DNA of 61,619 nucleotides from an uncultured Ulvibacter sp. (GTDB taxonomy: Bacteria > Bacteroidota > Bacteroidia > Flavobacteriales > Flavobacteriaceae): positions 1-61,619 of the forward strand of contig CALIAF010000042.1 in NCBI GenBank assembly GCA_938041335.1, given 5' to 3'. Of the stretch, positions 39,997 to 57,500 are shown in pieces. Made by a program: the position numbers and the translations under genes. A model generated the notes under the pieces. It did no database searches, was not told the origin of the DNA, and worked only from the letters and a program-made list of their open reading frames with translations. Every line of letters begins with the position of its first letter. The stretch's first letter is position 1.

Positions 39997-40065
39997 CATT
40001 CGTCGACACTTAAGCGTCATCCATCGACACTTAAGGCGGTGTTTGTCTTTAAAATCTGATACTTT
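39997..40065 (+). promoter_or_regulatory. Candidate LytTR sites and promoter of the sensory operon (region A)
   Basis: CATTCGTCGAC (39997-40007) and CATCCATCGAC (40018-40028) are direct repeats exactly 21 bp apart; both continue ACTTAAG. The first, extended to CCATTCGTC, differs by one base from the AlgR site CCGTTCGTC. A -7-like GATACTTT starts at 40058, 29 bp after the second site. The operon's first start codon is at 40121. Confidence 0.6.
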
Positions 40066-40120: not shown

Positions 40121-40522
40121 ATGAAAATATTGTTAATTGAAGATGATCAAATTGAGGTGATGAAACTCAAGCGTGCGACAGCTAAGCTTGATTTGGACAT
40201 CACGCTTCTGGAGGCTAAAAATGGTGAAGAGGCATTGGTTTTATTGAAGAATTATCAAAATTTACCAGATTTAATTTTCTTAGATTTGAATATGCCAAAA
40301 ATAAATGGCATTGAGTTTTTAAATATCTTAAAAAAAGATGATACATTGAAATACCTTCCTACGGTAATTTTAACCACATCGAACAATCGAAAAGATGTTT
40401 TAGAGTGTTATAAGGTAGGCGTTGCGGGCTATATTTTAAAACCATTAAAATATGAGAAATACGTAGATAAAATAAACAAGACACTGCTATATTGGAGTGA
40501 GAATGAATTAATAAAAGTATAA
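40121..40522 (+). CDS. Single-domain response regulator (receiver only)
   Basis: About 133 residues from ATG 40121; a TTG at 40106 would add five. A stand-alone REC domain: acidic pair LIEDDQ at the N-terminus, phosphoacceptor Asp55 (LIFLDLNMPKING), Thr in ILTTSNN and Lys in GYILKPLKY. It has the longer Rcp1-like form with an extra loop. No output domain, so it should pass phosphate on. The operon also has two hybrid-less kinases and an Hpt, so it fits as the middle carrier of a phosphorelay. The H-NOX gene starts immediately after its stop codon. Confidence 0.92.
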   Translation: MKILLIEDDQIEVMKLKRATAKLDLDITLLEAKNGEEALVLLKNYQNLPDLIFLDLNMPKINGIEFLNILKKDDTLKYLPTVILTTSNNRKDVLECYKVGVAGYILKPLKYEKYVDKINKTLLYWSENELIKV

Positions 40523-41062
40523 ATGAAAGGAATAGTTTTTACAGAGTTTTTAGAGTTAGTAGAAGATAAGTTTGGTCTAGAAATGGTAGACAATATTATT
40601 TCAAACTCTACTTTAGAGTCTGAAGGGGTTTATACAGCAGTAGGGACGTATAGTTTTTCTGAAATGCTTCAATTGTTGCAGCATTTAAGCGAGAATACTG
40701 GTATTTCAATAGATAATCTGCTTTTAGTGTATGCGGAGCATTTTTTTAGTGTAATAGAAAAAAGTTACCCGGGGCTTTTAGCAACATACAAAGACCCAAT
40801 TGAAATGATTTCGTCTATAGAAAACCATATTCATGTAGAAGTAAGAAAAATATATCCCGATGCAGAGTTGCCTACTTTTGAAGTAGTGGAGAAGACGGAA
40901 GATTCATTAATTATGATATATACCTCAAGCAGAGCTATGCATCACTTTGGTTTAGGATTAATGAATAAAACGTTTGAGCACTTTAATTCATCAGCAAAAA
41001 TTGAGTTAGAAAAAATAAAAGAAGACGGAACAGAAGTAAGATTTATTATTCAAAAAAATTAA
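40523..41062 (+). CDS. H-NOX heme nitric-oxide sensor protein
   Basis: 179 residues, the full length of a stand-alone H-NOX. MKGIVFTEFLELVEDKFG is the usual N-terminus. The proximal heme ligand is His104 (SIENHIHVEVRKIYPDAELPTF), aligned by spacing to the downstream Tyr-Pro with His105 of guanylate cyclase beta-1. The heme-propionate motif YxSxR is Tyr133, Ser135, Arg137. The stretch after it (AMHHFGLGL) has no tyrosine where O2-binding H-NOX proteins carry Tyr140, so an NO-selective heme is predicted. In Shewanella and Vibrio, H-NOX inhibits its neighbouring histidine kinase when NO is bound. Here the PAS kinase begins at the overlapping stop. Confidence 0.95.
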   Translation: MKGIVFTEFLELVEDKFGLEMVDNIISNSTLESEGVYTAVGTYSFSEMLQLLQHLSENTGISIDNLLLVYAEHFFSVIEKSYPGLLATYKDPIEMISSIENHIHVEVRKIYPDAELPTFEVVEKTEDSLIMIYTSSRAMHHFGLGLMNKTFEHFNSSAKIELEKIKEDGTEVRFIIQKN

Positions 41063-43020
41063 TGAATATTAAGCAGGTAGAAATATTACAACGCGCTTTA
41101 AAAAGAGAGAAGGCCGCAAGAAAAGCAGCTGAGAAAATCCTTGAAGAAAAATCAAGAGATTTATATATCACATCCCAAAAACTAGAACACCTTTTAGACG
41201 AAAAATCTTCGCAGCTTCAAGGTGTTTTTGAGAATATTATTGACGCCTATGTAGTAATGGATCTAGTGGGTAATATTGTAAAATTTAATGAAGCGGCATC
41301 CAAGTTGTTTGGTTACGATATGGATAAAGATGCTGTAAATGTTACGAATCTTATTTTTCAAGAAGATTATAGTTATGCGATGAACTCTTTTGTGGAGTTG
41401 CAAACCAAAGGTTATTTTAAAAATTATGAAGCCCGAGTAACGACCAAGTCTAAAGAGGTGAAATGGGTGCATATAAATGCAAGTTTAATTTTTGATAAAG
41501 ATAAAAAACCGGTTGCAGCACAAGGTATTGTAAGAGATATTACGGATCAAAAAGAAGCAGAAGAACAATTAATAGAATCTGAAAATAGGCTAGCAACTAT
41601 TATCTTAAACTTAGATAGTGGAGTACTTCTGGAAGATGAAAACAGAAAAATAGTGTTAACTAATGCTAAGTTTTGTGAATTGTTTTCAATTCCTATGGCA
41701 CCTGCTGAGCTTCAAGGTATAGATTGTGAGGGTGCGTTAAATGCAAGTAAAGATTCTTTCGTTGACCCAGAGGGTTTTATTACAAGAATTACTGATCTTC
41801 TAAGTAAGAAAGAGATTGTTCAAGCAGACGTATTGACCATGGTTAATGGAACCATTCTTGAACGAGATTACATCCCTATTTTTGAGAATAATATCTACAG
41901 AGGTCATTTATGGACGTATAAAGATGTTACACTTAATAGAAAATATCGAGACAGTATAGAAGCGCAAAGGCAAAAATACAGTGACATTATTGCAAATATG
42001 AACCTTGGACTTGTTGAGGTTAATAATGATGATGAAATACTAATGATTAATCAGAGTTTTGAAGAGATGTCTGGTTATACTGAGGATGAAGTAGTAGGGA
42101 AAAAAGGAAGTGCGCTTTTTACTTTTGAAGACGAAAGTAAAATCATAGCACGAGAGAATGCTAAGCGACAAAAAGGAAAATCAAACTCTTATGAGATAAA
42201 AGTCAAAAATAAAGCTGGTGAGATTAGATATTGGCTAGTAAGTGGTGCGCCTAATTTTAACTTAGATGTTGAGGTTGTTGGTTCTATAGGTATTCATCTA
42301 GACATTACCGAAATTAAAAATTTAGAATTTCAGAAAGAAAAATTACTTGAAAAATTAGAGAAAAGTAATGATGAGCTCAATGAGTATGCCCACGTGGTAT
42401 CTCATGATTTGAAGTCTCCATTGCGCAGTATTTATGCTTTAGTAGATTGGATTAAAGAGGATAATGCGGACACGTTTTCTGAAGAAACGGCTCAAAATTT
42501 TTCTTTAATAAATCTTACATTAGAAAAAATGGAACAACTAATTTCTGATGTACTTGATTATTCTAGTGTTACTTCAGAAAACAAAGCTAAAGTAGCTGTC
42601 AATCTGGATACGGTAATTCAAGACATCTTACAAATACTTTATGTTCCTGAACAGATAACTATTAATTACAAGTCAAATTTTCCTACCATAAAAGGAAACC
42701 GCGCGAGATTGCAGCAACTTTTTCAAAACTTAATTAGTAATGCCATTCGATATACTGATAAGGAAGAGGGTCTTATTGTTATTGATTGCCAAGAATTAGA
42801 AACGCATTATCAATTTTCAATTGAAGATAACGGTATCGGTATTGCGCCAGAGCATCATGAAAAAATCTTTAAAATATTTCAAAGCCTTCACCAAACTAAA
42901 GAATCTACAGGTGTTGGTCTGTCTATTGTAAAAAAAATAGTCAATCTTCACGAAGGTGATATATGGGTAGAAAGTAGCCTTGGAGAAGGAGCTACTTTTT
43001 TCTTCACAATAAAAAAATAA
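41062..43020 (+). CDS. PAS-domain sensor histidine kinase, likely H-NOX partner
   Basis: 652 residues, cytosolic (no membrane segment). A coiled coil (about 3-50) leads into three PAS domains (about 53-170, 175-295, 305-425; GYTEDEVVGKKGSALF in the third). HisKA has His448 in YAHVVSHDLKSPLRS. The HATPase domain shows LFQNLISNAIRYT, DNGIGIAPEHHEKIF and GVGLSIVKKIV. The start overlaps the H-NOX stop (TAATG), as expected for a sensor-kinase pair. The kinase core is closely similar to that of the second kinase in the operon. It has no receiver domain. Confidence 0.93.
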   Translation: MNIKQVEILQRALKREKAARKAAEKILEEKSRDLYITSQKLEHLLDEKSSQLQGVFENIIDAYVVMDLVGNIVKFNEAASKLFGYDMDKDAVNVTNLIFQEDYSYAMNSFVELQTKGYFKNYEARVTTKSKEVKWVHINASLIFDKDKKPVAAQGIVRDITDQKEAEEQLIESENRLATIILNLDSGVLLEDENRKIVLTNAKFCELFSIPMAPAELQGIDCEGALNASKDSFVDPEGFITRITDLLSKKEIVQADVLTMVNGTILERDYIPIFENNIYRGHLWTYKDVTLNRKYRDSIEAQRQKYSDIIANMNLGLVEVNNDDEILMINQSFEEMSGYTEDEVVGKKGSALFTFEDESKIIARENAKRQKGKSNSYEIKVKNKAGEIRYWLVSGAPNFNLDVEVVGSIGIHLDITEIKNLEFQKEKLLEKLEKSNDELNEYAHVVSHDLKSPLRSIYALVDWIKEDNADTFSEETAQNFSLINLTLEKMEQLISDVLDYSSVTSENKAKVAVNLDTVIQDILQILYVPEQITINYKSNFPTIKGNRARLQQLFQNLISNAIRYTDKEEGLIVIDCQELETHYQFSIEDNGIGIAPEHHEKIFKIFQSLHQTKESTGVGLSIVKKIVNLHEGDIWVESSLGEGATFFFTIKK

Positions 43021-43021
43021 T

Positions 43022-44119
43022 ATGCTTATTACAACTACAGATACAAATGAGATAATAGACGCTATCTCTGCCCATGTAAAAGACAATGCAGTCTTAATAT
43101 CCATAGGAGAACATACTGATATTGACCTTATGGATTTTGTTAATCAGTTAAAAGAATCTGGATTACAATTTATGGGTGGGATGTTTCCCAAAGTAATCCA
43201 TGGTAATTCGGTACTAGAAAAAGGAATCGTAATAAATACCCTTAATAATTTAGAAAATCTCTTTTTAGTTGAAAATATAAGCTCAACAAATTATACAATT
43301 CCAGCAATACATTTTGAAGAAGATCAAGAGTATAGTTTATTTACTTATGTGGATGGTTTGACCTCTAACATATCCAATTATTTAAGTAAATTATATGAAC
43401 ACTATGGAATGCAAACGAACTACTTTGGTGGAGGTGCAGGCAGCCTTACACTAGAACAAATGCCTTGCGTGTTTTGTAATGAAGGGCTGTTTCAAGATGC
43501 TGCGGTTGTTGGTGTGATGAAAATGGCGTCTAGAATTGGAGTACGTCATGGCTGGACTAAAGTAGGAGGCCCTTTTATAGTTACAAAGGCCGAAGGGAAT
43601 GTGATTAAAGAAATAAATTGGAAAAATCCGTTTGACGTCTACAAAGAAGTGGTAGAGGAACATTCTGGATTGACATTTACGGATGAAAATTTCTTTAATA
43701 TTGCAAAGGGATATCCTTTTGGAATCTTAAAGGAAGATGCTGAGTGTGTGGTGCGCGACCCTTTAATGGTTACCGAAAACGGTGAGCTGGTTTGCGTAGG
43801 CGAACTAGAAGATAATATGCTAGTCGACATTCTTAATGGGGATAAAGAATCTCTCGTTCTTGCTGCACGACAGGCTACTCAAGAAAGCATAGATAGTGCT
43901 GTAGCACCTAGAAAAGCGATTATCATAGATTGCATATCTAGAATACTGTTCTTAGAAGAAAATTTTGATCTGGAGCTCAATGCAATCACACAAACGATTA
44001 AAGAAAAATTTCCAGATGTTTCAATTGGAGGAGCACTTACATTGGGAGAGATATCTTCTTATGGAGAAGGCTTTCTGGAATTTTATAATAAAACTGTAGT
44101 AGTAGGATTGTTCGAATGA
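43022..44119 (+). CDS. FIST-domain sensor, NosP-like
   Basis: 365 residues forming FIST_N (about 15-205) and FIST_C (about 215-350) domains: LMDFVNQLKESGLQFMGGMFPKVIHG, QTNYFGGGAGSL, FCNEGLFQDAAVVGVM, RHGWTKVGGPF, VRDPLMV and SIGGALTLGEISSYGEGFLEFYNKTVVVG. FIST proteins are cytosolic small-ligand sensors. One subfamily, NosP, binds heme and NO and controls a co-encoded histidine kinase. The gene lies between two kinases and overlaps the second by 4 bp. Heme binding is not proven from sequence; amino acids are the alternative ligands for FIST. Confidence 0.88.
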   Translation: MLITTTDTNEIIDAISAHVKDNAVLISIGEHTDIDLMDFVNQLKESGLQFMGGMFPKVIHGNSVLEKGIVINTLNNLENLFLVENISSTNYTIPAIHFEEDQEYSLFTYVDGLTSNISNYLSKLYEHYGMQTNYFGGGAGSLTLEQMPCVFCNEGLFQDAAVVGVMKMASRIGVRHGWTKVGGPFIVTKAEGNVIKEINWKNPFDVYKEVVEEHSGLTFTDENFFNIAKGYPFGILKEDAECVVRDPLMVTENGELVCVGELEDNMLVDILNGDKESLVLAARQATQESIDSAVAPRKAIIIDCISRILFLEENFDLELNAITQTIKEKFPDVSIGGALTLGEISSYGEGFLEFYNKTVVVGLFE

Positions 44120-45264
44120 TAAAAACAGAGAACTACATAATAGACATTTTACAACTTCATGAATATGGAATGGCCATAGGTCAATCTTTGGACTATAAGG
44201 AGAGTTGCGATTTATTTATAAAGTTATTACTCAAGCGTAAACATCTTAATGCCGCCTGGATTCTTGAAAAAAAAGAAAACGTTTATCAGTCTACGTATTC
44301 TATACCTTTAGGAGATAAGATAGCTATTGATGTAGCTCAAGTTAATGGAATAACCCAAAACCTAATCGAAAGTAAAATCTTTTATGATGATCATTCTATT
44401 GCTAGTGTCTCTCCAATAAAATTGGATGGAGGGGCAACGGCCATTTTTGACTTAAAAGGAGAGGGCTTTTTATTTTTGTATTCCAAGAAAAACAATATTT
44501 CAGAAAAGGATTTGTCTCAATTACGCCCGGTGATTAATAAATTTTCTGTTAATCTCAAAGCGTGTAAAGCTTTCAATGAACAACAAAAATTATTACACAG
44601 TTTAGAAGTCCAAAATCAGGAGTTAAGTGATTATGCTCATATGGTGTCACACGATCTAAAGTCTCCTTTGCGAAGTATCGATACATTGACTACTTGGCTG
44701 CAAGAGGATTATGCAAGCAAATTAGACTCAGCTGGGAAAAAGCAAATCACTTCTATTAGAAATAGTGTCGAAAAAATGGATACACTTATTAGTGGTATTC
44801 TAGAGTATTCTACCATTGGAAAAACAAAGATAACTTCTTATCCGGTAGACGTAAATGTGTTACTCAAAGATATCATTTCTTTAATACAAGTGCCAGCTCA
44901 TATTTCTATTGAGATTGAGGACTTACCTATAGTGCAAGGCGATAAGTATAGATTACAGCAATTATTTCAAAATCTGCTAAGTAATGCACTTGCATACAAT
45001 GACAAAAAGGAAGGAAAAATACAAGTAGGGGTTAAAGACCTAGGGGCATTTTGGGAGTTTTTTGTAAAAGATAATGGTAAAGGCATATCTGATCATTACT
45101 TTAAAAAAATATTTAAGGTATTTGAAAAACTAGAAAATAATGATACATCTACCGGCATAGGCCTTTCTATTGTCAAGAAAATTGTTGAAATGTATCAAGG
45201 ACAAATCTGGTTAGAGAGTGAAGAGACTAAGGGTACTACGTTCTATTTTACCTTAAAAAAATAA
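44116..45264 (+). CDS. Cytosolic sensor histidine kinase, likely FIST partner
   Basis: 382 residues, no membrane segment. The N-terminal 150 residues form a GAF-like input domain. HisKA has His179 in YAHMVSHDLKSPLRS, and HATPase shows LFQNLLSNALAYND, DNGKGISDHYFKKIF and GIGLSIVKKIV. The catalytic half is a close paralogue of the H-NOX-linked kinase, including the identical segment SHDLKSPLRS, so both probably feed the same receiver. The start overlaps the FIST stop by 4 bp, the typical arrangement of NosP with its kinase. Confidence 0.93.
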   Translation: MIKTENYIIDILQLHEYGMAIGQSLDYKESCDLFIKLLLKRKHLNAAWILEKKENVYQSTYSIPLGDKIAIDVAQVNGITQNLIESKIFYDDHSIASVSPIKLDGGATAIFDLKGEGFLFLYSKKNNISEKDLSQLRPVINKFSVNLKACKAFNEQQKLLHSLEVQNQELSDYAHMVSHDLKSPLRSIDTLTTWLQEDYASKLDSAGKKQITSIRNSVEKMDTLISGILEYSTIGKTKITSYPVDVNVLLKDIISLIQVPAHISIEIEDLPIVQGDKYRLQQLFQNLLSNALAYNDKKEGKIQVGVKDLGAFWEFFVKDNGKGISDHYFKKIFKVFEKLENNDTSTGIGLSIVKKIVEMYQGQIWLESEETKGTTFYFTLKK

Positions 45265-45267
45265 GCA

Positions 45268-45585
45268 ATGGAAAAACCTAATATGTCATATATAGATACG
45301 CTTTCGGGAAGTGATAAAGCGTTTAAGTTAAAGCTAATTTCTATAGTAAAAGAGGAGCTGCCGCAAGAAATTACTATTTACGAAGAGAATATAAAATCTA
45401 AAAATTTTAAAGAAGCTGCAGAAAATGTGCATAAACTTAAACATAAAATTAGTATTTTGGGTTTAGAAACGAGTTATCAAATAGCAATTGATTATGAAGA
45501 GAATTTAAAAATAGCGTCAACACAGTTACGCGTTGAGTTTGAAGCTATTTTAAAAGAAATGACACGTTTTATAACCACATTATAA
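45268..45585 (+). CDS. Hpt phosphotransfer protein
   Basis: 105 residues, a four-helix histidine phosphotransfer domain. His55 in AENVHKLKHKISILGL matches the HxLKxxxxxxG pattern of Hpt proteins. It lies between the kinases and the LytTR regulator, 3 bp after the second kinase. It should move phosphate from the single-domain receiver (Asp55) to the LytTR regulator (Asp54). Confidence 0.85.
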   Translation: MEKPNMSYIDTLSGSDKAFKLKLISIVKEELPQEITIYEENIKSKNFKEAAENVHKLKHKISILGLETSYQIAIDYEENLKIASTQLRVEFEAILKEMTRFITTL

Positions 45586-45595
45586 TTTTATTGAG

Positions 45596-46321
45596 ATGAT
45601 GAAATGTATTATTGTTGATGATGAAACTGCGGCAAGAGCTATTATTAGCCACCTGTGTTCGCAAGTAGATACTTTAGAAGTGGTGGGTGAGTTTCCCAAC
45701 GCGATGCAGGCCATTAAGTATTTAAATAAAAATGAGGTAGACCTTATTTTTCTGGATATCCATATGCCAGATTTCACGGGTTTTGATTTTATTGACAGCT
45801 TAAAGAATCCTCCTAACATTATCTTAACAACATCAGATAAAAATTTTGCTATAGAGGCATTTGAGTATGACTGTATTGTTGATTACTTAGTAAAACCGGT
45901 GTTATTACCTCGATTTTTAAAAGCAATACAAAAGGCGGAAAATTTTGTGAGCACAACGGGAGATACCCCAGCAGTCGCTCCTGTTTCTAAACAACCCGAA
46001 TCTACTTCAACTAAAGAGCTATATGTAAATATAGATAGACGTTTGGTTAAGATTGATTTTGATAGTATCTTCTTGGTCGAGGCTAAAGGTGATTATATTT
46101 TAATAAAAACGGAAGGTAAAAATTATACCGTACATTCTACATTAAAGAAGATTGAGGATAAATTATCTGGTAGTTCTTTTTTAAAAATACACCGCTCGTA
46201 TATTATCAATATCAAGAAAATTATCGATATCGAAGACAATAGTGTTTTGATAGCAAAAGATGTTATTCCTATTAGTAGATCTAATAGGCCAGAATTAATG
46301 AAAAGACTTAATCTTTTGTAG
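45596..46321 (+). CDS. LytTR-family response regulator (DNA-binding)
   Basis: 241 residues. A receiver domain (1-120) with acidic IIVDDE, phosphoacceptor Asp54 (LIFLDIHMPDFTG), TSD and Lys in YLVKPVL is followed by a short linker. The LytTR DNA-binding domain (about 140-240) shows ELYVNIDRRLVKIDFDSIFLVEAKGDYI, FLKIHRSYIINI and VIPISRSNRPELM. LytTR regulators (AlgR, AgrA, LytR) bind paired 9-bp-type sites on one DNA face and often control exopolysaccharide and virulence genes. It is the last gene of the sensory operon and stands directly upstream of the polysaccharide locus. Confidence 0.95.
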   Translation: MMKCIIVDDETAARAIISHLCSQVDTLEVVGEFPNAMQAIKYLNKNEVDLIFLDIHMPDFTGFDFIDSLKNPPNIILTTSDKNFAIEAFEYDCIVDYLVKPVLLPRFLKAIQKAENFVSTTGDTPAVAPVSKQPESTSTKELYVNIDRRLVKIDFDSIFLVEAKGDYILIKTEGKNYTVHSTLKKIEDKLSGSSFLKIHRSYIINIKKIIDIEDNSVLIAKDVIPISRSNRPELMKRLNLL

Positions 46322-46436
46322 TCTTTTAAGTTTTAATAGTTTCCACTTTTTAAAAGCTTCTTTCGCTCAAAATCTCCTGGGCATAACCACGAACTGACCT
46401 TTATTATTTCTGAAACACCATAGAATACCATTTACT

Positions 46437-46463
46437 GTCGACGAATGGAATTTTACTGAAGAT
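46437..46463. promoter_or_regulatory. Candidate LytTR site upstream of the TPR porin gene (region B)
   Basis: GTCGACGAATGG (46437-46448) is the exact reverse complement of CCATTCGTCGAC in region A. A direct repeat TTTACTG at 46431 and 46452 is also 21 bp apart. Orientation is opposite to the other regions, and the -7 element is unclear (TATCTTGC at 46485 or TGCATTTG at 46490). Confidence 0.45.
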
Positions 46464-46510
46464 TAAAATACTTCGATGTACTCATATCTTGCATTTGTAA
46501 AATAGCAAGA

Positions 46511-48550
46511 ATGAAAACACTACAATTAATTATCGTTTTATTAAGTTTCACAGTACAGGCCCAGCAAATGGAAACTGGGTTCACTTACCTTGAAGAAGGG
46601 AATTGGACAGAAGCTTCTACTTTTTTTAAAAATGTATTAGAAGAATACCCAGATAATAAAACGGCTAAACTCTGTTACGGAAGAGCGATTGGACTTGCTG
46701 GAAAGCCAGAAGAGGCTGCTGTAGTTTTTACTTCATTATTGGATACATATCCTGGAGATTTTGAAATTCAATTAAACTTGGCTGAATCTTTATTATGGAG
46801 AGAGAAGTATGAGGAGGCAGAAGTTTTTTATCTAGAATTAGTTGCAAAAAACGCAACAAGTTTTCCAGCTTTGCTCGGGTTAGCTAATACCTATTCTAAT
46901 TTAAAGAAATATGAGGTAGCCTTAGATTTTGTAACAAAAGCGCTTCAAGTCGATCCTGAAAATTTCGGTGCAAAAACGAGTAGAAAGTATATGAAGTTAG
47001 GAATGGCTTCTCAGCTTATAAAAAGCAATAATCAAGAACTAGCTATTACATTACTTAATGAAAATTGTGTAGATTTTCCAGGGGATAGCGAATCACTAAG
47101 TGCCTTGGCAGAACTTTATATGGCTCAAAAAGATTTTGAGAAGGCTAATGACTCTTACCTTTCTATTAAGGATAGCGTAGTCTTATATCGCGGGGTATCT
47201 TTAGTTGCACATAAAATGTTTAAAGATAAAAAAGCCTTGGCCTATGCTAAGAATGGGGTTAATTTTTCTGTAAAGAATGATTCTATTCAGTATTTAACAG
47301 CTAATGAGCGATTAGTGCAGGCACTTGTATGGAGTGGGAAATATAGCCAAGCATCAGCTATTATTGAATCTTTGAAGCTTCGTTTTCCTGAGAACGCTAC
47401 AGTATTAGCACTTGAGGCGACCGTAGGAATGTATACTTCAAAATTTGCAAAGAGTATCGCACACTATGAGGCAATACTGGCAATCGACAGTACTTCTTTT
47501 GACGGGAACTTAGGGATTGCTAATGCATATAGAGCAAAAGGAGAAAGAACAATCGCCATTTCTTATGCAGAAAAGACGCTTCAATTCTATCCTGATCAAA
47601 AAGATGCAATGACTTTAATAGCAACTATCAAGAACGAAATGCTTCCAGAAGTTCAAGTTAGAGGTGCGATGACTGTAGATAATGGTGACAATGAAGCCTG
47701 GTCTTATGGTGCTTCTTTAAACATCCCTATATCAGAGCGATTTAAGACCTTCTTTTCATATGATTACAGAACAACAACTAATAGTACAATAAACACAATG
47801 GCAAATAGCACTCAGTTTACTGCGGGTAGTTCTTATCGTGTGGTCAATAATGTGAAGATTCATTCTTCATTAAGTGTGATTAGTGCTAATGCAAATACGG
47901 AAGAGTATTCAAATATTAATGGAGCATTAAAAGTTACAGCTAGACCCTTACCAAATCAATTTTTGAGTGTAGGGTATAACAGAGCGCTACAAGATTTTAA
48001 CGCGAGTTTGATTGAAGAGAAAATTTTCATGAACAACTTTAATGTGAGTCATAATATCAGTTCAAATTTTGGATTAGGCTGGTATACTTCTTATACGTAC
48101 ACAGCTCAAACTGATGCAAACGAACGTAACTTATTGTTTACATCACTGTATTACAATCTTTCTAAGCGACCAGCAATTAAAGCGGGTATCAATTATCAGT
48201 ATATGGGATTCTCAAAGCAAGTGCCTACATTATACTTTAGTCCTTCTAAGTACCAGTCAGTAGAAGTTTTTGCAGAAGCAAGTGGAACCTTAGGAGTTCT
48301 TGATTACAGTTTAAATAGTGCCTTTGGTAAGCAGTTTGTTGAAAACGATACAGCGACTTCTCTTTTTAGAATAGAAGCGAGAGCTGGTATTAATCTAGCA
48401 AATAATCTTAGAGGTTCTGTCTATGGAAAGTATAGCAACATCGCTTCGGCAACGGCTTCTGGCTTTTCTTTTACAGAAGTAGGATTTCAAGTTTCTTGGA
48501 AAATTGGTAAAAGAGCATCAAAAGAAAACACTACTAAAAAAGCTTTATAG
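46511..48550 (+). CDS. TPR/outer-membrane beta-barrel protein, candidate polysaccharide export porin
   Basis: 679 residues with a signal peptide (1-18, ending VQAQ). About ten TPR units fill residues 20-380 (TYLEEGNWTEASTFFKNVLEEYPDN and so on). The C-terminal 300 residues form a beta-barrel of the YaiO type: VQVRGAMTVDN, SLNIPISERFKTFFSYDYR, LSVGYNRALQDF, and the last strand FTEVGFQVSWKIGK. The layout of periplasmic TPR plus outer-membrane barrel is that of PgaA, BcsC, PelB and AlgK/AlgE exporters. With glycosyltransferases and a flippase downstream, it is the best candidate for the outer-membrane exit of an exopolysaccharide. Confidence 0.82.
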   Translation: MKTLQLIIVLLSFTVQAQQMETGFTYLEEGNWTEASTFFKNVLEEYPDNKTAKLCYGRAIGLAGKPEEAAVVFTSLLDTYPGDFEIQLNLAESLLWREKYEEAEVFYLELVAKNATSFPALLGLANTYSNLKKYEVALDFVTKALQVDPENFGAKTSRKYMKLGMASQLIKSNNQELAITLLNENCVDFPGDSESLSALAELYMAQKDFEKANDSYLSIKDSVVLYRGVSLVAHKMFKDKKALAYAKNGVNFSVKNDSIQYLTANERLVQALVWSGKYSQASAIIESLKLRFPENATVLALEATVGMYTSKFAKSIAHYEAILAIDSTSFDGNLGIANAYRAKGERTIAISYAEKTLQFYPDQKDAMTLIATIKNEMLPEVQVRGAMTVDNGDNEAWSYGASLNIPISERFKTFFSYDYRTTTNSTINTMANSTQFTAGSSYRVVNNVKIHSSLSVISANANTEEYSNINGALKVTARPLPNQFLSVGYNRALQDFNASLIEEKIFMNNFNVSHNISSNFGLGWYTSYTYTAQTDANERNLLFTSLYYNLSKRPAIKAGINYQYMGFSKQVPTLYFSPSKYQSVEVFAEASGTLGVLDYSLNSAFGKQFVENDTATSLFRIEARAGINLANNLRGSVYGKYSNIASATASGFSFTEVGFQVSWKIGKRASKENTTKKAL

Positions 48551-48562
48551 TTACGTATTTAC

Positions 48563-48631
48563 CATTGGTCTATAGCAAAGCTCCACTCGTCTACGATGCT
48601 CGATTTAAGCTTTAATGTATCCCGATATTTG
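48563..48631 (+). promoter_or_regulatory. Candidate LytTR sites and promoter upstream of STAS/flippase genes (region C)
   Basis: CATTGGTCTAT (48563-48573) and CACTCGTCTAC (48584-48594) are direct repeats 21 bp apart. The -7-like GATATTTG (48624-48631) begins 29 bp after the second. No TTG -33 element is at the proper distance, as expected for an activator-dependent promoter. The leader then runs to the 34-aa ORF at 48657. Confidence 0.6.
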
Positions 48632-48786: not shown

Positions 48787-49083
48787 ATGTCATTACAGAT
48801 CACAACAACTCAAAATGAGATTGCATTAAAAGGAAATTTAACAGCAAATACAATCTTTCAAATTAAGAGATTTTGCACCACATTATTAGAACAGGAAGGT
48901 TCATTACATGTAAATCTTTCGGGATTAGATCAAGTTGATGTTTCTGCAGCGCTAATGTTACGCGACTTACAAATGGATGCTTATAACACCAATAAAGTTT
49001 TAACGGTAACAAATGGTGAGAATCAAAAAATATTAGGTGCATTTAGAATGCTAGATCATCAAGTGCTTCAGGCAGCAGCATAA
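48787..49083 (+). CDS. STAS-domain protein (anti-sigma-factor antagonist-like)
   Basis: 98 residues, a single STAS domain: EIALKGNLTANTIFQIKRF, SLHVNLSGLDQVDVSAALMLRDL and ILGAFRMLDHQVL. Ser53 in VDVSAA is at the position phosphorylated in SpoIIAA-type antagonists. It belongs to the polysaccharide locus, 8 bp before the flippase gene. STAS proteins also regulate polysaccharide secretion in Vibrio (SypA) and Pseudomonas relatives through partner switching. No anti-sigma kinase is visible in the window. Confidence 0.85.
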   Translation: MSLQITTTQNEIALKGNLTANTIFQIKRFCTTLLEQEGSLHVNLSGLDQVDVSAALMLRDLQMDAYNTNKVLTVTNGENQKILGAFRMLDHQVLQAAA

Positions 49084-49091
49084 TTATTAAA

Positions 49092-50333
49092 ATGATGTAC
49101 GCACTTAAACACAGACTAGGCATAACCATCAAACCAGAGTTGCTATTTATTTTGAGCAGCTTTGTGGTAAATGGAGGTAACTATATTTATAATCTATTAA
49201 TGGGTAGAATACTTGGCCCAGCAGCATTTGCAGACGTTGCCATCCTCATAACATTGTTGTTGGTTATTTCTTTTGTTGCCATGACGTTTCAAGTGGTCGT
49301 ATCAAAATTTACTGTCGAGTTGAATACTTCGGAAATAGCCTCATTTAAAAAATGGGTGCTGCAACGTGCAACAGCAGTAGGTTTTATTTTAGGGGCTTTA
49401 ACAATCTTATTCTCAAAAGAGCTGCAGTCGTTTTTTAATACTTCATCTTCAACAATGTTTCTTTTTTTCGGGATAGGGATTCCTGTTTATTTTATTACAA
49501 GCGTTCACCGTGGTAGTTTGCAAGGCGACACCAATTTTACAGCACTCTCAGGGTCCTATCAAATGGAAATGTGGGTGCGACTTATTGGGACCTTTGGGCT
49601 ATTATTTTTATTAGGTCTTAAACCCATAGAGAGTGTTTCCATTGCTATCGCATTTTCTTTTGTCGCTGGATTATTTCCGTGGAGAAAAAGAGAAGGCACT
49701 AAAGTGGCAATGCCTAAATTGTCTACCGCCAATAAAAAATTAATTAAAAAGTTCTTTTTACTCACTGCATTTTACGAGTGCACCCAAATTATTTGCAATA
49801 ACAGCGATATACTTTTAGTTAAACATTTTTTTGATGCAACAGAATCTGGCTTGTACGCTTCGTTAGCACTTATAGGTAGAGTGATATATTTTATTACTTG
49901 GATGTTTGTAATGTTGTTGTTGCCCAAAGTAGTTATGCTGAGAAAAGAAGGGCAAAAAACAAAACCACTTTTAATAAAATACGTAGGTTACATTTCTGTA
50001 TTTGCATTGTGTACAACAGCACTCGCATTTTTGTTTCCTCAGACTGCAGTATCTCTTCTTTTTGGCGAAGCTTATATGAGTATAGCAAATTTACTAGGAT
50101 GGTATGCGCTTGCTACATCTCTCTTTGCAATCTCTAATATTTTTGCCTATTACTTTCTTTCTCTAGATCAATATCTTCCCATTTTATTTTCGGGTATAAT
50201 GGGAATAGCACAAGTGTTATTAGTGGTGTTTTTTCACGATAGTTTATTTCAAGTAGTGCTTATGCAAATAATCGCAATGGCGGTACTTCTCGTATTACAA
50301 CTGGCGTATTTTTTTAAGTATGATGCTAAATAA
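49092..50333 (+). CDS. Wzx-like polysaccharide flippase (MOP superfamily)
   Basis: 413 residues, twelve or so membrane segments across the whole length. N-terminal FVVNGGNYIYNLLMGRILGPAAFADVAIL is the classic oligosaccharide flippase lead (GNxxYxxxxGRxLGPxxF). The middle QIICNNSDILLVKHFFDATESGLYASLALIGR is also typical. It should move a lipid-linked sugar unit or polymer precursor across the inner membrane. A strong terminator follows, separating it from the GT4 gene. Confidence 0.88.
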   Translation: MMYALKHRLGITIKPELLFILSSFVVNGGNYIYNLLMGRILGPAAFADVAILITLLLVISFVAMTFQVVVSKFTVELNTSEIASFKKWVLQRATAVGFILGALTILFSKELQSFFNTSSSTMFLFFGIGIPVYFITSVHRGSLQGDTNFTALSGSYQMEMWVRLIGTFGLLFLLGLKPIESVSIAIAFSFVAGLFPWRKREGTKVAMPKLSTANKKLIKKFFLLTAFYECTQIICNNSDILLVKHFFDATESGLYASLALIGRVIYFITWMFVMLLLPKVVMLRKEGQKTKPLLIKYVGYISVFALCTTALAFLFPQTAVSLLFGEAYMSIANLLGWYALATSLFAISNIFAYYFLSLDQYLPILFSGIMGIAQVLLVVFFHDSLFQVVLMQIIAMAVLLVLQLAYFFKYDAK

Positions 50334-50494: not shown

Positions 50495-50584
50495 AGATAG
50501 TCTATAGATAAATTCCACTCGTCTATAGCAATCTGCCAACCATCGATTCTGCTCTATTTTAACCCCTTAACCTCCGCATCTTTG
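50495..50584 (+). promoter_or_regulatory. Candidate LytTR triple site and promoter of the GT4 gene (region D)
   Basis: Three direct repeats at 21-bp steps: AGATAGTCTAT (50495-50505), CACTCGTCTAT (50516-50526), CAACCATCGAT (50537-50547). The first two share GTCTATAG exactly. The -7-like CATCTTTG (50577-50584) starts 29 bp after the third site. No -33 TTG at standard distance. Confidence 0.62.
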
Positions 50585-50620
50585 CAGTGTAAACAAACAA
50601 TAACACTTAAAAATATAAAG

Positions 50621-51826
50621 ATGAAATTAGGAATTGTAACAGCGTATCCACCAAGTAAAGTAACCTTAAATGAGTATGCTTTTCATTTAGTAAAAAACTT
50701 TAGAAAACAAGATCAAGTGTCTGAAATTATTTTATATACAGACGCAACAGAAGAAGAAGCAGCTATAAATTTTGAAGGACACGGTTGTAAAATAACGGTA
50801 AAACAATGCTGGAAATTTAATAGCTACACAAACGTGCTTTCTATAGATAAAGCGATCAGAGAAACACAACCAGATGCAGTTCTTTATAATCTTCAGTTTA
50901 TGAAATTTGGAGATAAAAAGATAGCAGCTGCATTAGGTCTTTTCTCTCCTTGGATGACAAAATTAAAAGGAATTAAAACTACCGTATTATTGCATAACAT
51001 ACTAGAAATGGTAGATCTTTCTAGCGCTGGTTTTACGCAAAGTAAATTTAAAGCTAGAATCTTAAATGGTATAGGAAACGTTCTTACTCGTGTGATCTTA
51101 AAAGCAGATACAATTGCTGTAACGATGGAAAAATATGTGACAATACTACAAGACAAGTATAAAGCAGACAACATAACATTAATACCGCACGGTACATTTG
51201 AGATCCCAGCAGAGCCAACTTATAATTTAGATAAAGGACCTAAGCAGATTATGACTTTTGGAAAGTTTGGTACCTACAAAAAAATTGAAGCGATGATTGA
51301 GGCTGTTGCCATAGTGAGAAAAGAGACTAATGAAGAACTAGAGATTGTGATTGCAGGAACAGATAACCCTAACACACCAGGTTATTTAGCAGGTGTAGAA
51401 AAGCAATATGCAGATGTACCTAATTTAAGGTTTACGGGCTATGTAGAAGAAGAAGATGTGCCAGTACTATTTGGAGAAGCTGCAATGGTTGTTTTTCCGT
51501 ACACTTCAACTACAGGAAGCTCTGGAGTATTGCACCAAGCAGGTAGTTTTGGTAAAGCCGTTGTTATGCCAGATCTTGGAGACTTAAGTTTATTAGTTAA
51601 AGAAGAAGGGTATGAGGGAGCATTTTTTGAACCAACGTGTACCAAGAGTCTTGCGTCTGCTATCAAAAAATTAGTTTTAGAGGATGACTATAGAAAAGCA
51701 ATAGCAAAGAAAAATTATCAAGCTGCAACGGCATTACCTATGAGTGAGATCACAAGAAGATATATCAATACATTTAGAGAGATACAACTAGATACTACAG
51801 CTTATGAATTTGATGTAGCTGCTTAA
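50621..51826 (+). CDS. Family 4 glycosyltransferase
   Basis: About 401 residues from ATG 50621, chosen because MKLGIVTAYPPSKVTLNEYAFHLV is the normal GT-B start; the frame is open to 50582 inside the -7 region. The C-terminal half carries the GT4 nucleotide-sugar site: ITLIPHGTFE, IMTFGKFGTYKKIE, IVIAGTDNP, LRFTGYVEEEDVPVLFGEAAMVVFPYTSTTGSSGVLHQAGSFG (E-x7-E variant region). Cytosolic; adds a sugar to a lipid-linked or growing polysaccharide. Stop codons of this gene and the convergent GH-A gene are adjacent. Confidence 0.9.
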   Translation: MKLGIVTAYPPSKVTLNEYAFHLVKNFRKQDQVSEIILYTDATEEEAAINFEGHGCKITVKQCWKFNSYTNVLSIDKAIRETQPDAVLYNLQFMKFGDKKIAAALGLFSPWMTKLKGIKTTVLLHNILEMVDLSSAGFTQSKFKARILNGIGNVLTRVILKADTIAVTMEKYVTILQDKYKADNITLIPHGTFEIPAEPTYNLDKGPKQIMTFGKFGTYKKIEAMIEAVAIVRKETNEELEIVIAGTDNPNTPGYLAGVEKQYADVPNLRFTGYVEEEDVPVLFGEAAMVVFPYTSTTGSSGVLHQAGSFGKAVVMPDLGDLSLLVKEEGYEGAFFEPTCTKSLASAIKKLVLEDDYRKAIAKKNYQAATALPMSEITRRYINTFREIQLDTTAYEFDVAA

Positions 51827-53341
51827 TTAGTGATCTAAAGATTTGAATAAATTATATGATTCTTTAGGTGTTCCTTCAAGGTCAATTAGCCCAAAGTGTT
51901 CTTGTTTGTTTTTACGCCAGGGATAGTTTCCTGCCACAGAAGAAGGGATGTTTTCAAAATCATATAAGGTCCAAAAAAGATAGTTTCGGCTATCTTTTTT
52001 TTGCATTTCTAAGAAGGTCTCGTAATAGGCGTGTTGGTCCTTTTCAGAATTGCCCAATACATTCCATAAACCAAAATCTGTAGACAGACCAAACTCTTGC
52101 AATACAATTGGTTTCTTGGTCTGTGCTTCAATACTATTAAAAGCCTCTGGCAAGGTCTCTAATGATTGATAATGATGAAAGCTTATATAGTCTACCGTGT
52201 TTACTAGATGAGTGGCAGCAACGGCAGTTGACCATCCTATGGTGGTTGGATGGATCGAGTCTATTTCTTTAATAGCGTGATTCATTTCTTGAAGCCAAGC
52301 AGTCACACGATGTTTGCTTCTAGACTCAAAATCTAAATCGGGCTCGTTTTTAATATCCCAGCTATGCAATGCTTTATGGTCTGCAACAGCGGCAACTATA
52401 GTTTGTGCGTGTAATTGTGTTCTTGACCAGTCTAAAACCGAGTAGTCACCATAAAAGTCAAAAAGCGTTACAATTACTTTAAGGTTATTAGCTTCAGCTA
52501 TATCTAATAATTGCCTTAGTTTCTCAATTTTTGTTTCTGAAACAGTCGCACCCCCAAAATCTTCGTATCCGATAAATATGCGAATGCTTTCAAAACCTAA
52601 TGAATTTATTTTTTGAAAATCGGAGTCTATTACCTCCAAAGAAAAAGAAGCATTAAAAGTATCCCAAGGACTGTCTTTAGGGTAATAATTAAGTCCTATT
52701 ACGGGATCAAATTGTAAAATTTCAGTACTTGGTTCTATGGGTGTGCTAACATTAATTTTTTCTTGGTGTCTTATACGCCAGTAACCATCTTCAAGAAGCA
52801 TAATAATCTTGTAGCTTGCTGTTTCCGTAGTTTCAAATTGAAAGATGTCATTTACATACGTTGCGCTGTAAGTTCTCACATCTGCATCTGTAAAGGTCAC
52901 CATGTTACCATCTGCACTGTAAAAATCTAAGGTAATGTTGTGATTTAATGAGGTAGATTCTATTCTCGTTTTCTGTTTGGCATGGTGCGCTACAATGGCA
53001 ATCAAATGCTCTTTTGCATTTTCTGTATACACATCTGCGATGCCTTGCGTGTCGACACCTCTTAAACTTTGTGCTCGCGTATACCACGCATCTAGGTAGT
53101 GTTGCTCTATTTTTTTAAGGGACGGCTGCTCCATAGGTCGCCCTTCGCTGTTAAGGGTGTTCCAGCTTACTTTTGGGGTGTAGTAGTTTTCTTTTGCAAG
53201 GTCTTTATGAAACATGCTTGCTCTATCTGCACCTGTGTTTAAGTAATTTAAAACCTGTGCAATACCAAAAAGGATAAAGCCATTGACAAGAACAAATCCG
53301 GCAATTATTAAAATTCTATATGTTACCTTATTCCCTTTCAA
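51827..53341 (-). CDS. Membrane-anchored clan GH-A (GH5-like) glycoside hydrolase
   Basis: 504 residues. One N-terminal membrane anchor (about 9-33). Residues 65-210 look like an NTF2-type domain (GIADVYTENAKEHL...SYKIIMLLEDGYWRIRHQEKI). Residues 225-500 form a (beta/alpha)8 barrel of clan GH-A: acid/base Glu333 in WDIKNEPDLD, SFHHYQ, nucleophile Glu416 in VLQEFGLST, FWTLYDF. Both catalytic glutamates are in place. Inside an exopolysaccharide locus it is likely to trim or release the polymer in the periplasm, as PelA, PslG and BcsZ do. It overlaps the upstream Ig-like gene by 4 bp. Confidence 0.88.
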   Translation of the reverse strand: MKGNKVTYRILIIAGFVLVNGFILFGIAQVLNYLNTGADRASMFHKDLAKENYYTPKVSWNTLNSEGRPMEQPSLKKIEQHYLDAWYTRAQSLRGVDTQGIADVYTENAKEHLIAIVAHHAKQKTRIESTSLNHNITLDFYSADGNMVTFTDADVRTYSATYVNDIFQFETTETASYKIIMLLEDGYWRIRHQEKINVSTPIEPSTEILQFDPVIGLNYYPKDSPWDTFNASFSLEVIDSDFQKINSLGFESIRIFIGYEDFGGATVSETKIEKLRQLLDIAEANNLKVIVTLFDFYGDYSVLDWSRTQLHAQTIVAAVADHKALHSWDIKNEPDLDFESRSKHRVTAWLQEMNHAIKEIDSIHPTTIGWSTAVAATHLVNTVDYISFHHYQSLETLPEAFNSIEAQTKKPIVLQEFGLSTDFGLWNVLGNSEKDQHAYYETFLEMQKKDSRNYLFWTLYDFENIPSSVAGNYPWRKNKQEHFGLIDLEGTPKESYNLFKSLDH

Positions 53342-54585
53342 TGGATGGTTTTTTTGAAATTCTTAGTGATTCCTAAAGCTGTTATTGTAACATCATATGT
53401 CGCATCAGGATAGAAGTCTTCGGAAATACTAAAACTTGCAAATCCGTCTTTTGAAGAAATTTGGTTTATCTCTTGCTTTCCGTTAATGAATAGTTCTACC
53501 ACGGCACCATCTGGAATGAGTTGGCCTAAATAACTTTTAAGAGGCCCCACTGTAATTGTTCTATTGTTCTCAGAAAATTGTAGTTCAAATTCTTTTAAGA
53601 TAGAGGTAAAGGCGATTGCTATTTCTTGTGAGTCTGCTAATCCTGGTATAGTAGCTTTTATTTTTAAAGTTGTTGGAGCGTCAGGATATAATAATTTTGC
53701 TGTCGCTGTACCATTAATAGTAGTGGCTGAGGTTCTTAAAATCTGGCCATTACTGTCTACTCCTGTAAATTGTACTAGCGTACCGTCTGTAATGATGTTA
53801 TTATATGCGTCTCTCAGTATTGAGGTACTTAATGTGAGTATTTGATTACCATCTGCAAAAGGATGAGGTCGCTCATAAGAGATAACAAAGTCTTTAGGCT
53901 GGTTTGCAAAGACATCTATATTTAGCTCTCTTGATGCGCTATTCTCTAATAATGCTGTCGCAAAAATGCGGCCTTTCTTTTCTGGAGAAAAAATACGTTT
54001 CCAAGCAATTCGCTTATTAATTTTTAACGGAAAAGTCTCAGTGCTTGTCCCTCTTTGTTCATTTATAGTAACTGGAGTTTCATCAATAAGTAAATTGTCA
54101 TAAATGTCTGTAGGTATAGTAACTAACATTGTAAAATCTTTACCGCCAGCAATAATACTAGGAGGTCCAACATACGTCTCGGCTATTTTGTTAATAGCGG
54201 TACTTGGTCGTATCTCAAAACTCCCAGAATCTAGTTTGTTACCTGCTACAATAAAGTCCCATTGTATCCAGCCAGACTTCTTTGATATAAAGTGGGGTAG
54301 GGTGAAGTTTATCGCTTCTTTGTTTGAATCTTTAAACAGTGTTATGATGCCATAAGAAGTAGAGAGTTGTAAAAAAGCTTCTGTTAGGTTTGTTGTATTT
54401 GTGTCCTCAATAGTAGCAGATAGAATAATAGTATCTCCTGCATTATAGCGGCTGCGATCTTCTATTATTTTACCAGTAAGCCCATCGCTATCCTGCTGCA
54501 TTAAGTTGTTTTGGATGGTGTTAAACCCAATACAAATAATGAATAGTGGTAGTATTAACCAGATATGTTTGAATGCTTTTTTCAT
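53338..54585 (-). CDS. Membrane-anchored Ig-like (invasin/Big_1-like) repeat protein
   Basis: 415 residues. N-terminal signal anchor (about 7-24), then four or so Ig-like beta-sandwich units; for example residues 240-330, VISYERPHPFADGNQILTLSTSILRDAYNNIITDGTLVQFTGVDSNGQILRTSATTINGTATAKL, have the bacterial Ig-like (Big_1) pattern. No catalytic motif. Its stop overlaps the start of the GH-A gene, and its start follows the 1,029-aa gene with no gap, so the three act as one unit. Probably a periplasmic scaffold or polymer-binding subunit. Confidence 0.72.
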   Translation of the reverse strand: MKKAFKHIWLILPLFIICIGFNTIQNNLMQQDSDGLTGKIIEDRSRYNAGDTIILSATIEDTNTTNLTEAFLQLSTSYGIITLFKDSNKEAINFTLPHFISKKSGWIQWDFIVAGNKLDSGSFEIRPSTAINKIAETYVGPPSIIAGGKDFTMLVTIPTDIYDNLLIDETPVTINEQRGTSTETFPLKINKRIAWKRIFSPEKKGRIFATALLENSASRELNIDVFANQPKDFVISYERPHPFADGNQILTLSTSILRDAYNNIITDGTLVQFTGVDSNGQILRTSATTINGTATAKLLYPDAPTTLKIKATIPGLADSQEIAIAFTSILKEFELQFSENNRTITVGPLKSYLGQLIPDGAVVELFINGKQEINQISSKDGFASFSISEDFYPDATYDVTITALGITKNFKKTIH

Positions 54586-57500
54586 TTATTTAGGATTTCC
54601 TATATAACTATTCACTTGGATACTTATATAAGAGTAATTTTCATTCTCAACAGGAATGAGTGTTTGCATAGGCTTATTTAATGCTCTGTCTGGCACTATT
54701 TTGTTTGTTATATCTTCATTAGGCAATCCATTAATAAATACGTTTTTTAATGATGTGTTTAAAATGGTTCTAGGGTTATTGTTGCCTAGCGGGATTTTAA
54801 AAGTTACTTTTCTTTGTGGCCTTACACTCTCTGCAATGTAATTGCTTGTTACGTTTATTAGGTTTTTATTCTCATCATAATAGGAGATGAGTACTTGTGG
54901 TATTGTAGCATTTTGAATACCAGAATTAAAAAGTGTTCCTTCTATAAAACCTTCAGAAATCACGTTGTTTTGTATTGCAAGCCCATCATATAGATCTGTT
55001 GTGGCAACATTTGCTGATACCTGCAGATTAAAAGTTACTGGCTCCTCATCTAGAATAATTGATGTGAATTCTTCCGGGTCAAAAACTTCTGGTGGATTGG
55101 CATCAAAATTACTCCAGGCTATACCTTCAAAGTCAATTCTAAAATTAGATGATTCTTTAGCAAAGAGCTTGTGTTTAATAATATCTTTTGCGTTATAAGT
55201 TGCGAGTACACTATTGTCTTTAGCGTACAGTGTAGCTTTAATAGCAACATCTGCTGGGATAAAGTCTATATTTTGCAATGTACCAACAATAGTATATTCA
55301 TCATTAGATTTAATTAGTTTTGCAGACAACACTTCTACCACGGGTTGTTTTAAAACATCTTCATGATAGGTCTTACCAGAAGTTACTCTTCGTCTTCCAT
55401 GATTATAAAAAGTAGTATTGTTTTCAGAAAATAGCTGATCTGGTGGGATGTCTAGATCAATGTTTTGAGGTGTAATAAACCATTTGCTATCTATTTTTTT
55501 CACCTCTATAATTTCCTCCGTATTAAAAACCTTTAAAGGGGTGATCCACTTAGTAATTGCCTTAAGTTTTGCAACACTATCGTTTTCTTGTATTACCTCT
55601 GTGCTTATAGCATCTAGTTTTGCATAAGAACTAAGCAAGCCATCAGACACAGAAACTTCTAACATATACTGTGTCTTAGATTTTCCGCTTTCTGGATTAA
55701 TAAAGGAATAGGCTTTTTCAAAATTTTTAAAATCTAGCGCGTCATAATATGCTTTCACTACATTGCTGCCCGTAAGTTGTGCCGTATTTTTTAAATAAAA
55801 AGTATATCCGCCAAAGGCAAATAGCACCATCATAATTAGTACCCAAAAATAAGAAGTGTAGAATACCCACTTGATGGGTTTTTTATATTCCTGCTCAAAT
55901 GATAGGTAAGTAGCACTGTGTTTCGTTGTTCTTTTTAACTTACGTCTCCAGATAGCGCGTAAGTTTATGAGTAGTGCAAAAATAACAGTGCTTAATGGTA
56001 CAATACCCCAAAGTAATTTTTGAAATAAAGGAACATTATCCTTGGGTAATACGTTAGGTAATGGGGTAACTCCAGCGCGTTCCCAAACCATAATTCCATT
56101 TTCTAATTGTTGCAAACGATGCCACCCAGAAAAGTATAGAATCGGGTCATAAAATTTATCATTAGAAAATATATATTTAAGATGGTATTTATCAGGAACC
56201 GTAAGAAACTGCTGTAAGGAACCAATGCCTTCTACTCCTCTAAACTTTGAGTTTTCCAATCTTTCTACAGCCTTAGAGGTAAGCTCTGGTAAGCGTCTTG
56301 CAGAGTGATAGTTGCCATCTACGGTCATAGCATTGGTCTGCGCAGAAAGCCAAGCCATCTGGTCGCCAAAACCTAAGGGTAAATACCTCCATTTATCATG
56401 GTCATCTTGATTTAAAAAATTAACAATAGGAAGCATATTAATTTCTTGTGGTTGTGCAGGTCTAAATTTACCAAGGCTTACGGTAAATAAAGCAATAAAG
56501 ATAAATACACCCACTAAGAGCCCACCAGATATGCGATGCATAACGGGACCCCACTTTTCTTGAAGGTATATTTTTATGTCACCATCAGAAAAACGATATG
56601 CAAATTCCCCAAAAATGGGTAGAATAATAATCGATGCCCATAGTGTAAACCGATCTAGGGTTAGTATGTTAAATGCGTTTTCACCTAATATGGTAAGCGG
56701 TATTGAAGTTGTACCACCAGTTCCTAATAGGGTTAAAATGGCAAATGATATCCCAAAAAATAAATAACGTTTACTGAAAAATCTGTAAAATAAATACGGA
56801 AATAATAACAATAGTATTCCCCAGGGAATTAAAAAGAAGACCAAGCCAGAAGAGGTTACTTCTAGAAAATTATCTCGAGACCCGTGTGGTATAGGAACTT
56901 GAGTTATAGGGTTGTTTTTAGTATTTACCCAATAAGGAAGAATACAACCAATGATAAGAACAAGTGATCCTAAACCAAATGTGATGATACGTTTAAAGTG
57001 TTTAAAGAAATTAGCTAAGAATATCTTAAAAGTAACAGCTTTCATGCTGCCCGCATTTTCTTTTGAAGCATCCATTAATACCATCCCTATTAATGGGAAA
57101 ATAAAAAAGACCATCCCAAATATAGGAGTAACGTGATGCGATGTAATCGTTACTGCTAGTAATGCAAAGGATGTAGTTAGGTATCTGCCCTTACCAGTTC
57201 TTAACCAGAGGTAAATTTCTGGTAATGCATGCAGCAGTACAGAGATACCTATAATACTGGGGAGCTGTCCAAAAATATGTAGTGTTTCAACAAAAGAACT
57301 CGAGAATACTGCTAAAATAGCCGCGTAGCCAGCTACTTTTCTATTAGCTGTTAAGAGTAATGCAAATCTATATACTCCGGTAATAAAGAGTATTACCCCA
57401 ATTATGGCAACTGTGAACATACCAAACTTTAGGCCACCTATATATGAAAGAAGCGCAATGCTTTGATGTACAAGTGGCGGATATCCCATGACGGTAAATC

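Follow-up and report, generated by a model that had tools for sequence, protein, structure and literature searches.

Which genes does a gas sensor control when the whole phosphorelay behind it, down to a DNA-binding regulator, is encoded in a single operon? The question is raised by seven genes at positions 40121 to 46321 of contig CALIAF010000042.1 (uncultured Ulvibacter sp.; GenBank assembly GCA_938041335.1), a stretch of 61,619 nucleotides referred to here as the window. A first-pass annotation of this DNA had read the genes as one operon with two unrelated candidate nitric oxide (NO) sensors, an H-NOX and a NosP-like FIST protein, together with their kinases and the remaining parts of a four-step phosphorelay. 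Our analysis leads to a scheme, to which we assign a probability of roughly 0.7 as a whole, in which interchangeable sensor–kinase inputs feed a His-Asp-His-Asp relay whose LytTR output would act on the promoter of its own operon and on promoters of matrix genes.

Operon Organization and Conservation

All seven genes lie on the plus strand and are tightly packed: two neighboring pairs overlap, and the others are separated by no more than 10 bases. They encode, in order, a single-domain receiver (REC; 40121..40522, Asp55), an H-NOX (HNOB) heme sensor (40523..41062; His104, Tyr133/Ser135/Arg137), the PAS histidine kinase HK1 (41062..43020, His448), a divergent FIST-domain sensor that we call type B (43022..44119), the histidine kinase HK2 (44116..45264, His179), an Hpt phosphotransferase (45268..45585, His55), and a receiver-LytTR response regulator (45596..46321, Asp54). 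Every protein passed the Pfam cut-offs for its domains (receiver; HNOB; PAS and HisKA/HATPase; FIST N and FIST C; HisKA/HATPase; Hpt; receiver and LytTR), the Hpt domain barely so at 25.6 bits vs. 24.6. Beyond Pfam, the assignments drew on residue checks (both receiver proteins, both kinases, and Hpt), relatives (both receiver proteins, H-NOX, and Hpt), a PDB match for H-NOX, NCBIfam and an alignment of operon FISTs for the FIST protein, and a kinase-core comparison for HK2. The H-NOX gene overlaps its kinase gene by 1 base and the FIST gene overlaps its own by 4 bases; these overlaps, the gene order and positions, and all of the acceptor and H-NOX residues named in the first-pass annotation were borne out, as was the presence in one operon of two sensor–kinase pairs, all relay parts, and a DNA-binding output. 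The genome contains one HNOB and one FIST match, both within the operon.

Relatives were sought in a set of 349 genomes that, judged from the named relatives Dokdonia, Winogradskyella, and Psychroserpens, apparently represent the Flavobacteriaceae; HNOB was present in 129 of them and FIST in 104. In 71 of the 129 HNOB genomes, H-NOX had a same-strand FIST gene no more than 12 kb away, which began 1.3 to 2.7 kb downstream of H-NOX in 70 genomes and preceded it in one (distances were computed on 103 FIST places; the low-scoring rest, mostly tandem FIST genes, were checked by eye and none lay within 12 kb of H-NOX). The 111 loci compared in detail comprised the window, the 70 other near-FIST loci, and 40 of the 62 places at which H-NOX has no FIST gene nearby. 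The exact order of receiver, H-NOX, kinase, FIST, kinase, Hpt, and receiver-LytTR was found in 60 of these loci; 33 differ from it only in lacking FIST and its kinase, and 18 vary. Cultivated strains with the operon include Winogradskyella flava KCTC 52348 (L174). Because the exact order occurs in 60 of 111 loci, we do not regard it as chance, and the conservation in relatives that the first-pass annotation had named as its own check is evident. Both the operon and its relay acceptors are supported by these comparisons: all four His-Asp-His-Asp acceptors are present in the window and its relatives, with the receiver Asp kept in 109/109, the Hpt His in 105/105, and the LytTR Asp in 100/100 proteins. 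A phylum-wide distribution of the operon was considered and rejected, as it occurs in only one (L235) of the 13 loci retrieved from other families. Distances from H-NOX to FIST were also seen to increase in steps of ∼380 bases (1.35, 1.73, 2.1, and 2.5 kb), as if HK1 gained or lost PAS domains singly.

From these gene arrangements, H-NOX and the FIST–kinase pair appear to be add-on sensors on a core relay of receiver, kinase, Hpt, and LytTR. Three genomes without an HNOB match (L193, L194, L195) carry the core order of receiver, kinase, Hpt, and receiver-LytTR behind the same upstream motif as the full operon (see below). A Winogradskyella metagenome-assembled genome (L175) has three sensor–kinase pairs in one operon, their sensors being H-NOX and two FIST proteins of 377 and 365 aa, with a kinase gene behind each, and a third kinase is also present in L245 and L250. 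On a tree of 99 loci built by a quick method from H-NOX, receiver, Hpt, and LytTR, FIST presence changed 19 times, with at least 7 of these changes forced by starred branches.

The two kinases of the window are close kin. The genome search found 12 HisKA kinases, and within this set the HK1 and HK2 cores are mutual best matches (211 and 210 bits vs. 74 and 72 for the next kinase), and both have HDLKSPLRSI after the phospho-acceptor His. This kinship strengthens the case for a receiver shared by both kinases and supports it, short of proof. The operon might instead merely co-transcribe two circuits that do not converge, one sensor–kinase pair acting on the receiver or LytTR and the other on a partner elsewhere, and it is true that a FIST–kinase pair exists without the relay in L181 and that sensor and LytTR genes are separable (L080, L081, L082, L084; L188, L189, L191). 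We nevertheless consider two separate outputs unlikely, given the ∼137-bit margin by which the HK1 and HK2 cores match each other, the HDLKSPLRSI stretch that they have in common, and the repeated gain or loss of the FIST–kinase pair within the same relay. Convergence of both kinases on the one receiver is the reading we carry forward.

The H-NOX protein is very probably a heme-based NO sensor, judged from its sequence. It scored 134.7 bits against HNOB (Pfam cut-off 25.5) and matched PDB 6BDD along its whole length (residues 1–179, 321 bits). His104, Tyr133, and Ser135 are present in 111/111 loci and Arg137 in 98%; YxSxR is the H-NOX motif. The protein of PDB 6BDD and 6BDE, which we take to be from Kordia jejudonensis, is known as a structure of the sensor alone; among the papers listed, none was seen that ties it to this relay.

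A Candidate LytTR Operator

A tandem motif, CATTCGTCKACACTTAA, with a 21-bp period was found ∼100 bp upstream of the operon in 94 of the 111 loci. In the window, the candidate LytTR operator occupies 39997..40036 on the plus strand, 85–124 bp before the first ATG, and consists of two direct repeats with TCGACACTTAAG exact in both, at 40003 and 40024. Aligned upstream sites read CATTCGTC[GT]ACACTTAA twice, 21 bp apart. The matrix was built from 64 loci (44 of which were used in one site alignment) and searched up to 300 bp upstream on the same strand; it matched 64/64 of the building loci and 30/47 others, and nothing in an equally large control (1.25 Mb) made by order-1 resampling. The geometry, 9-bp direct repeats with a 12-bp spacer, fits the published LytTR site, described as a pair of 9-bp direct repeats spaced 10–13 bp (PMC11347149).

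A sequence model of the motif (R1), applied to the 349 genomes at E 1e-4, placed sites in 79, namely at least 74 of the 129 with H-NOX and at least 5 of the 220 without, both lower bounds since 18 candidates were scored per genome under strict filters. Of 103 model sites, 68 lay just upstream of the H-NOX operon. Five genomes outside model building (L235, L245, L246, L249, L250) have both operon and motif. These counts support the motif as a real feature of the operon, against which stand several loci: L248, where LytTR is not adjacent, has no motif; L247 has sites on the other strand only; and 17 of the 111 loci have no upstream motif at threshold, 11 of them with a LytTR gene in the fetched stretch (at least one of these, L171, looks like a miscalled start).

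The motif also tends to follow the LytTR gene. It is absent from six of the nine loci whose fetched stretch has no LytTR gene, vs. 11 of the 102 with one (Fisher p 3e-4), and another LytTR-less locus, L135, has a weak motif. In three genomes (G347, G172, G227; loci L188, L189, L191) the H-NOX operon has no LytTR, and receiver and LytTR genes lie elsewhere with the motif directly upstream of them. The window's genome has 12 LytTR matches. A motif generic to all LytTR proteins is unlikely, as the best three scored sites in that genome nonetheless all fall in the window, and with 12 candidates available this clustering points to the operon's own LytTR protein. Another regulator controlling both the signaling operon and the exopolysaccharide cluster described below might bind the motif instead: the link between LytTR and motif is drawn from sequence, the 12 LytTR matches leave other candidates in the genome, and the motif occurs in L102 and L120, whose fetched stretches show no LytTR gene (L120 is a broken operon), which counts against our reading as well. 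Such a regulator would not account for a motif that adjoins the LytTR gene where this lies apart from H-NOX, that has the geometry of published LytTR sites (PMC11347149), and that is mostly missing where LytTR is missing, and we consider it quite improbable. Binding of the motif by the operon's LytTR protein is the more probable reading.

No strong promoter element turned up at a constant distance from the operator; TANNTTTG at +81 to +83 gave 9 matches in 88 loci. Short proteins of ∼92–128 aa are encoded just before the operon, behind their own operator copy, in L091 (2056-2442) and eight more loci; the L091 protein had no Pfam match.

Candidate Target Genes

The same motif recurs beside the operon, at promoters of a cluster read as exopolysaccharide genes. 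In the window's own genome (3.25 Mb), the three best scored model matches are all in the window, at 39997 (E 4e-10), 46430 on the minus strand (E 0.001), and 57756 (E 0.06), and the next-best matches, outside the window, begin at E 0.24. A fourth site, at 48563, comes from the matrix (score 20.8). Together these sites precede the operon, a TPR gene, a STAS-flippase-glycosyltransferase set, and a divergent pair encoding a large membrane-type protein and a glycosyltransferase.

The first of the neighboring sites (46429..46468, minus strand; matrix and model) has one strong and one weak half-site and lies before the gene for a TPR protein (46511..48550, plus), a predicted target, which weakly matches the NCBIfam model of the PgaA polysaccharide export porin (67.8 bits vs. 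366.65). The matrix site (48563..48602, plus), two half-sites with a 21-bp period, is 224 bp before a gene for a STAS-domain protein (48787..49083, plus; Pfam), also a predicted target, followed by a membrane protein that we read as a polysaccharide flippase although it has no Pfam or NCBIfam match (49092..50333, plus) and a group 1 glycosyltransferase (50582..51826, plus; Pfam). On the minus strand are genes for a glycoside-hydrolase-like protein with a GH2 barrel match just over the Pfam cut-off (51827..53341), a protein with Ig-like (invasin-type) Pfam matches below cut-off (53338..54585), and a large protein with an FxLYD domain and a PTPS-related membrane match below cut-off (54586..57675; Pfam/NCBIfam). 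The last candidate operator (57756..57795, plus; model), with half-sites 21 bp apart, lies between this gene and the divergent gene of a family 2 glycosyltransferase (57860..58675, plus; Pfam), which is followed by mannose-6-phosphate isomerase (58701..59660, plus; Pfam).

The cluster as a target is supported by its recurrence, with sites at its promoters, in 9 of the 20 regions fetched for their sites (L196, L198–L202, L204, L206, L207), of which L196 is from a genome without an HNOB match. Two of the three loci with a separate LytTR gene (among L188, L189, L191) also adjoin flippase and glycosyltransferase homologs. Against this assignment, only 150 of 1107 first-look candidates were scored in the window's own genome, the site at 57756 is weak, and that at 48563 was found by the matrix only. 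Sites in L190, L192, L197, L203, and L205 adjoin genes outside the cluster, and in eight of the nine regions (all but L196) the cluster site is some 20–24 kb from H-NOX, so that the linkage is local and by itself no proof of control.

Secondary sites in the 111 loci precede 77 further genes, the largest group of which has 32 members. All three members scanned match DUF6923, and two of the three have a secretion sorting tail above cut-off.

In L198 (8859-10046) the cluster glycosyltransferase is fused to an N-terminal receiver by Pfam, and a local profile gives the same label in L196, L199–L202, L204, and L207; the window copy (57860) shows no receiver domain. The fusion suggests a second, possibly post-translational, output of the relay in relatives.

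Proposed Mechanism

In the proposed scheme, the H-NOX protein, through its heme and very probably in response to NO, would regulate HK1, with the FIST protein acting likewise on HK2. The single stand-alone receiver would take phosphate from both kinases and hand it via Hpt to the LytTR regulator. This regulator would in turn bind the paired 9-bp direct repeats, 12 bp apart, that precede its own operon and lie in promoters of the neighboring exopolysaccharide cluster, and in relatives may also act at promoters of a secreted DUF6923 protein. It would probably activate its target promoters rather than repress them.

Outputs through cyclic di-GMP (c-di-GMP) were sought by domain. None of the seven operon proteins has a GGDEF, EAL, or HD-GYP output domain by Pfam, and a search of the window's genome (∼97% complete) for GGDEF proteins came up empty (EAL and HD-GYP were not searched genome-wide). 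With no GGDEF protein found, the usual c-di-GMP output is unlikely, and we infer that the relay acts on matrix promoters and not through c-di-GMP. A broader extrapolation, in which we have about as much belief as doubt, is that a c-di-GMP-independent gas-to-matrix switch is widespread in what appears to be the Flavobacteriaceae: one phospho-bus into which one to three cassettes (H-NOX, FIST type A, FIST type B, kinases of other input) are plugged, their signals summed, and a single LytTR protein driving the exopolysaccharide cluster and a secreted matrix protein.

Identity of the FIST Protein

Is the second sensor also an NO sensor? The two NO sensors of the first-pass annotation fared differently, the H-NOX half holding up in its 321-bit match to PDB 6BDD and the NosP half being weakened. 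On the NCBIfam NosP model NF041558 the window FIST scored 28.6 bits against an equivalog cut-off of 450, and the FIST of L091 scored 60.2; by sequence, NosP identity of the window FIST is not supported. All 24 operon FISTs scanned, out of 70, matched the model at E 0.001 or better (best E 1.4e-23). A single His is conserved in 64 of the 70 operon FISTs, and the window FIST has Tyr355 in its place; its own subtype has invariant His18, His60, and His176 in 10/10 rows. We know of no established NosP heme ligand for comparison. The type B protein is 74–76% identical to the FISTs of L110 and L112 and 45% to those of L085 and L086, with a median identity of 20% to all operon FISTs, and L066, from the same genus as the window organism, has FIST type A. 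An AlphaFold2 model from 10 rows was too poor to use (mean pLDDT 57), and PDB sequence searches for FIST relatives gave nothing meaningful (E 0.98, and E 0.025 to a CRISPR protein).

That the FIST protein is a genuine NosP-like heme sensor, and the operon a double NO sensor as first proposed, could draw on the Pfam scores of its FIST N and FIST C domains, both over the cut-off, the matches of all scanned operon FISTs to the NosP model, the His common to most operon FISTs and the invariant ones of the window's subtype, and a gene position beside a kinase as in NosP/NosK (PMC12570481). We find it doubtful in view of NosP scores far under the cut-off for the FISTs of the window and L091, the Tyr at the position of the common His, and the ∼20% identity to most operon FISTs.

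Arrays of four close FIST genes were also seen in genomes G069, G101, G225, and G261, none of which has an H-NOX match.

Relation to Known Systems

LuxU is an Hpt protein, as is the sixth product of the operon. For Vibrio and Shewanella, H-NOX kinase phosphorelays, crossing with NosP signaling, and a transcription-factor output, HnoC, are on record: HqsK, the H-NOX kinase of V. parahaemolyticus, phosphorylates LuxU, in V. cholerae H-NOX signaling crosses NosP signaling, and in S. oneidensis the output is the transcription factor HnoC (PMC8738867). The H-NOX–kinase networks of Shewanella, Vibrio, and Legionella have in common with the present operon an H-NOX gene beside a kinase and a phosphorelay, but the outputs described for them are c-di-GMP enzymes, quorum-sensing circuits, or HnoC, whereas here the output is LytTR, the relay is in one operon, and no GGDEF protein was found. 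NosP/NosK/NosR operons are alike in having a FIST gene adjoining a kinase without a recognized sensor domain (PMC12570481), and differ in that the window FIST is under the NosP cut-off and the operon has no c-di-GMP output domain. With LytTR response regulators the operon shares the receiver-LytTR output and the paired 9-bp direct repeats spaced 10–13 bp (PMC11347149), but here the regulator would be fed by a receiver–Hpt relay with H-NOX and FIST sensor–kinase pairs.

As far as literature searches show, the single-operon relay with LytTR output, its operator, the exopolysaccharide promoters, and the cassette behavior are new; among the matches listed, no title or abstract opening describes the operon or motif, which is weak evidence of absence. 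The tandem operator, exopolysaccharide promoters, and cassette behavior go beyond the first-pass annotation. The accounts of NO control of biofilms deal chiefly with c-di-GMP enzymes and relays of quorum sensing (PMC8738867). A large bacterial family appears to end an NO-linked phosphorelay directly at matrix promoters, where operator and target genes can be tested at once, and the repeated gain and loss of sensor–kinase pairs in one relay amounts to a natural experiment on wiring several sensors into one output.

Elsewhere in the window, a single 1007-aa gene (36834-39857) combines APH-type phosphotransferase, M23 peptidase, and class-III aminotransferase parts.

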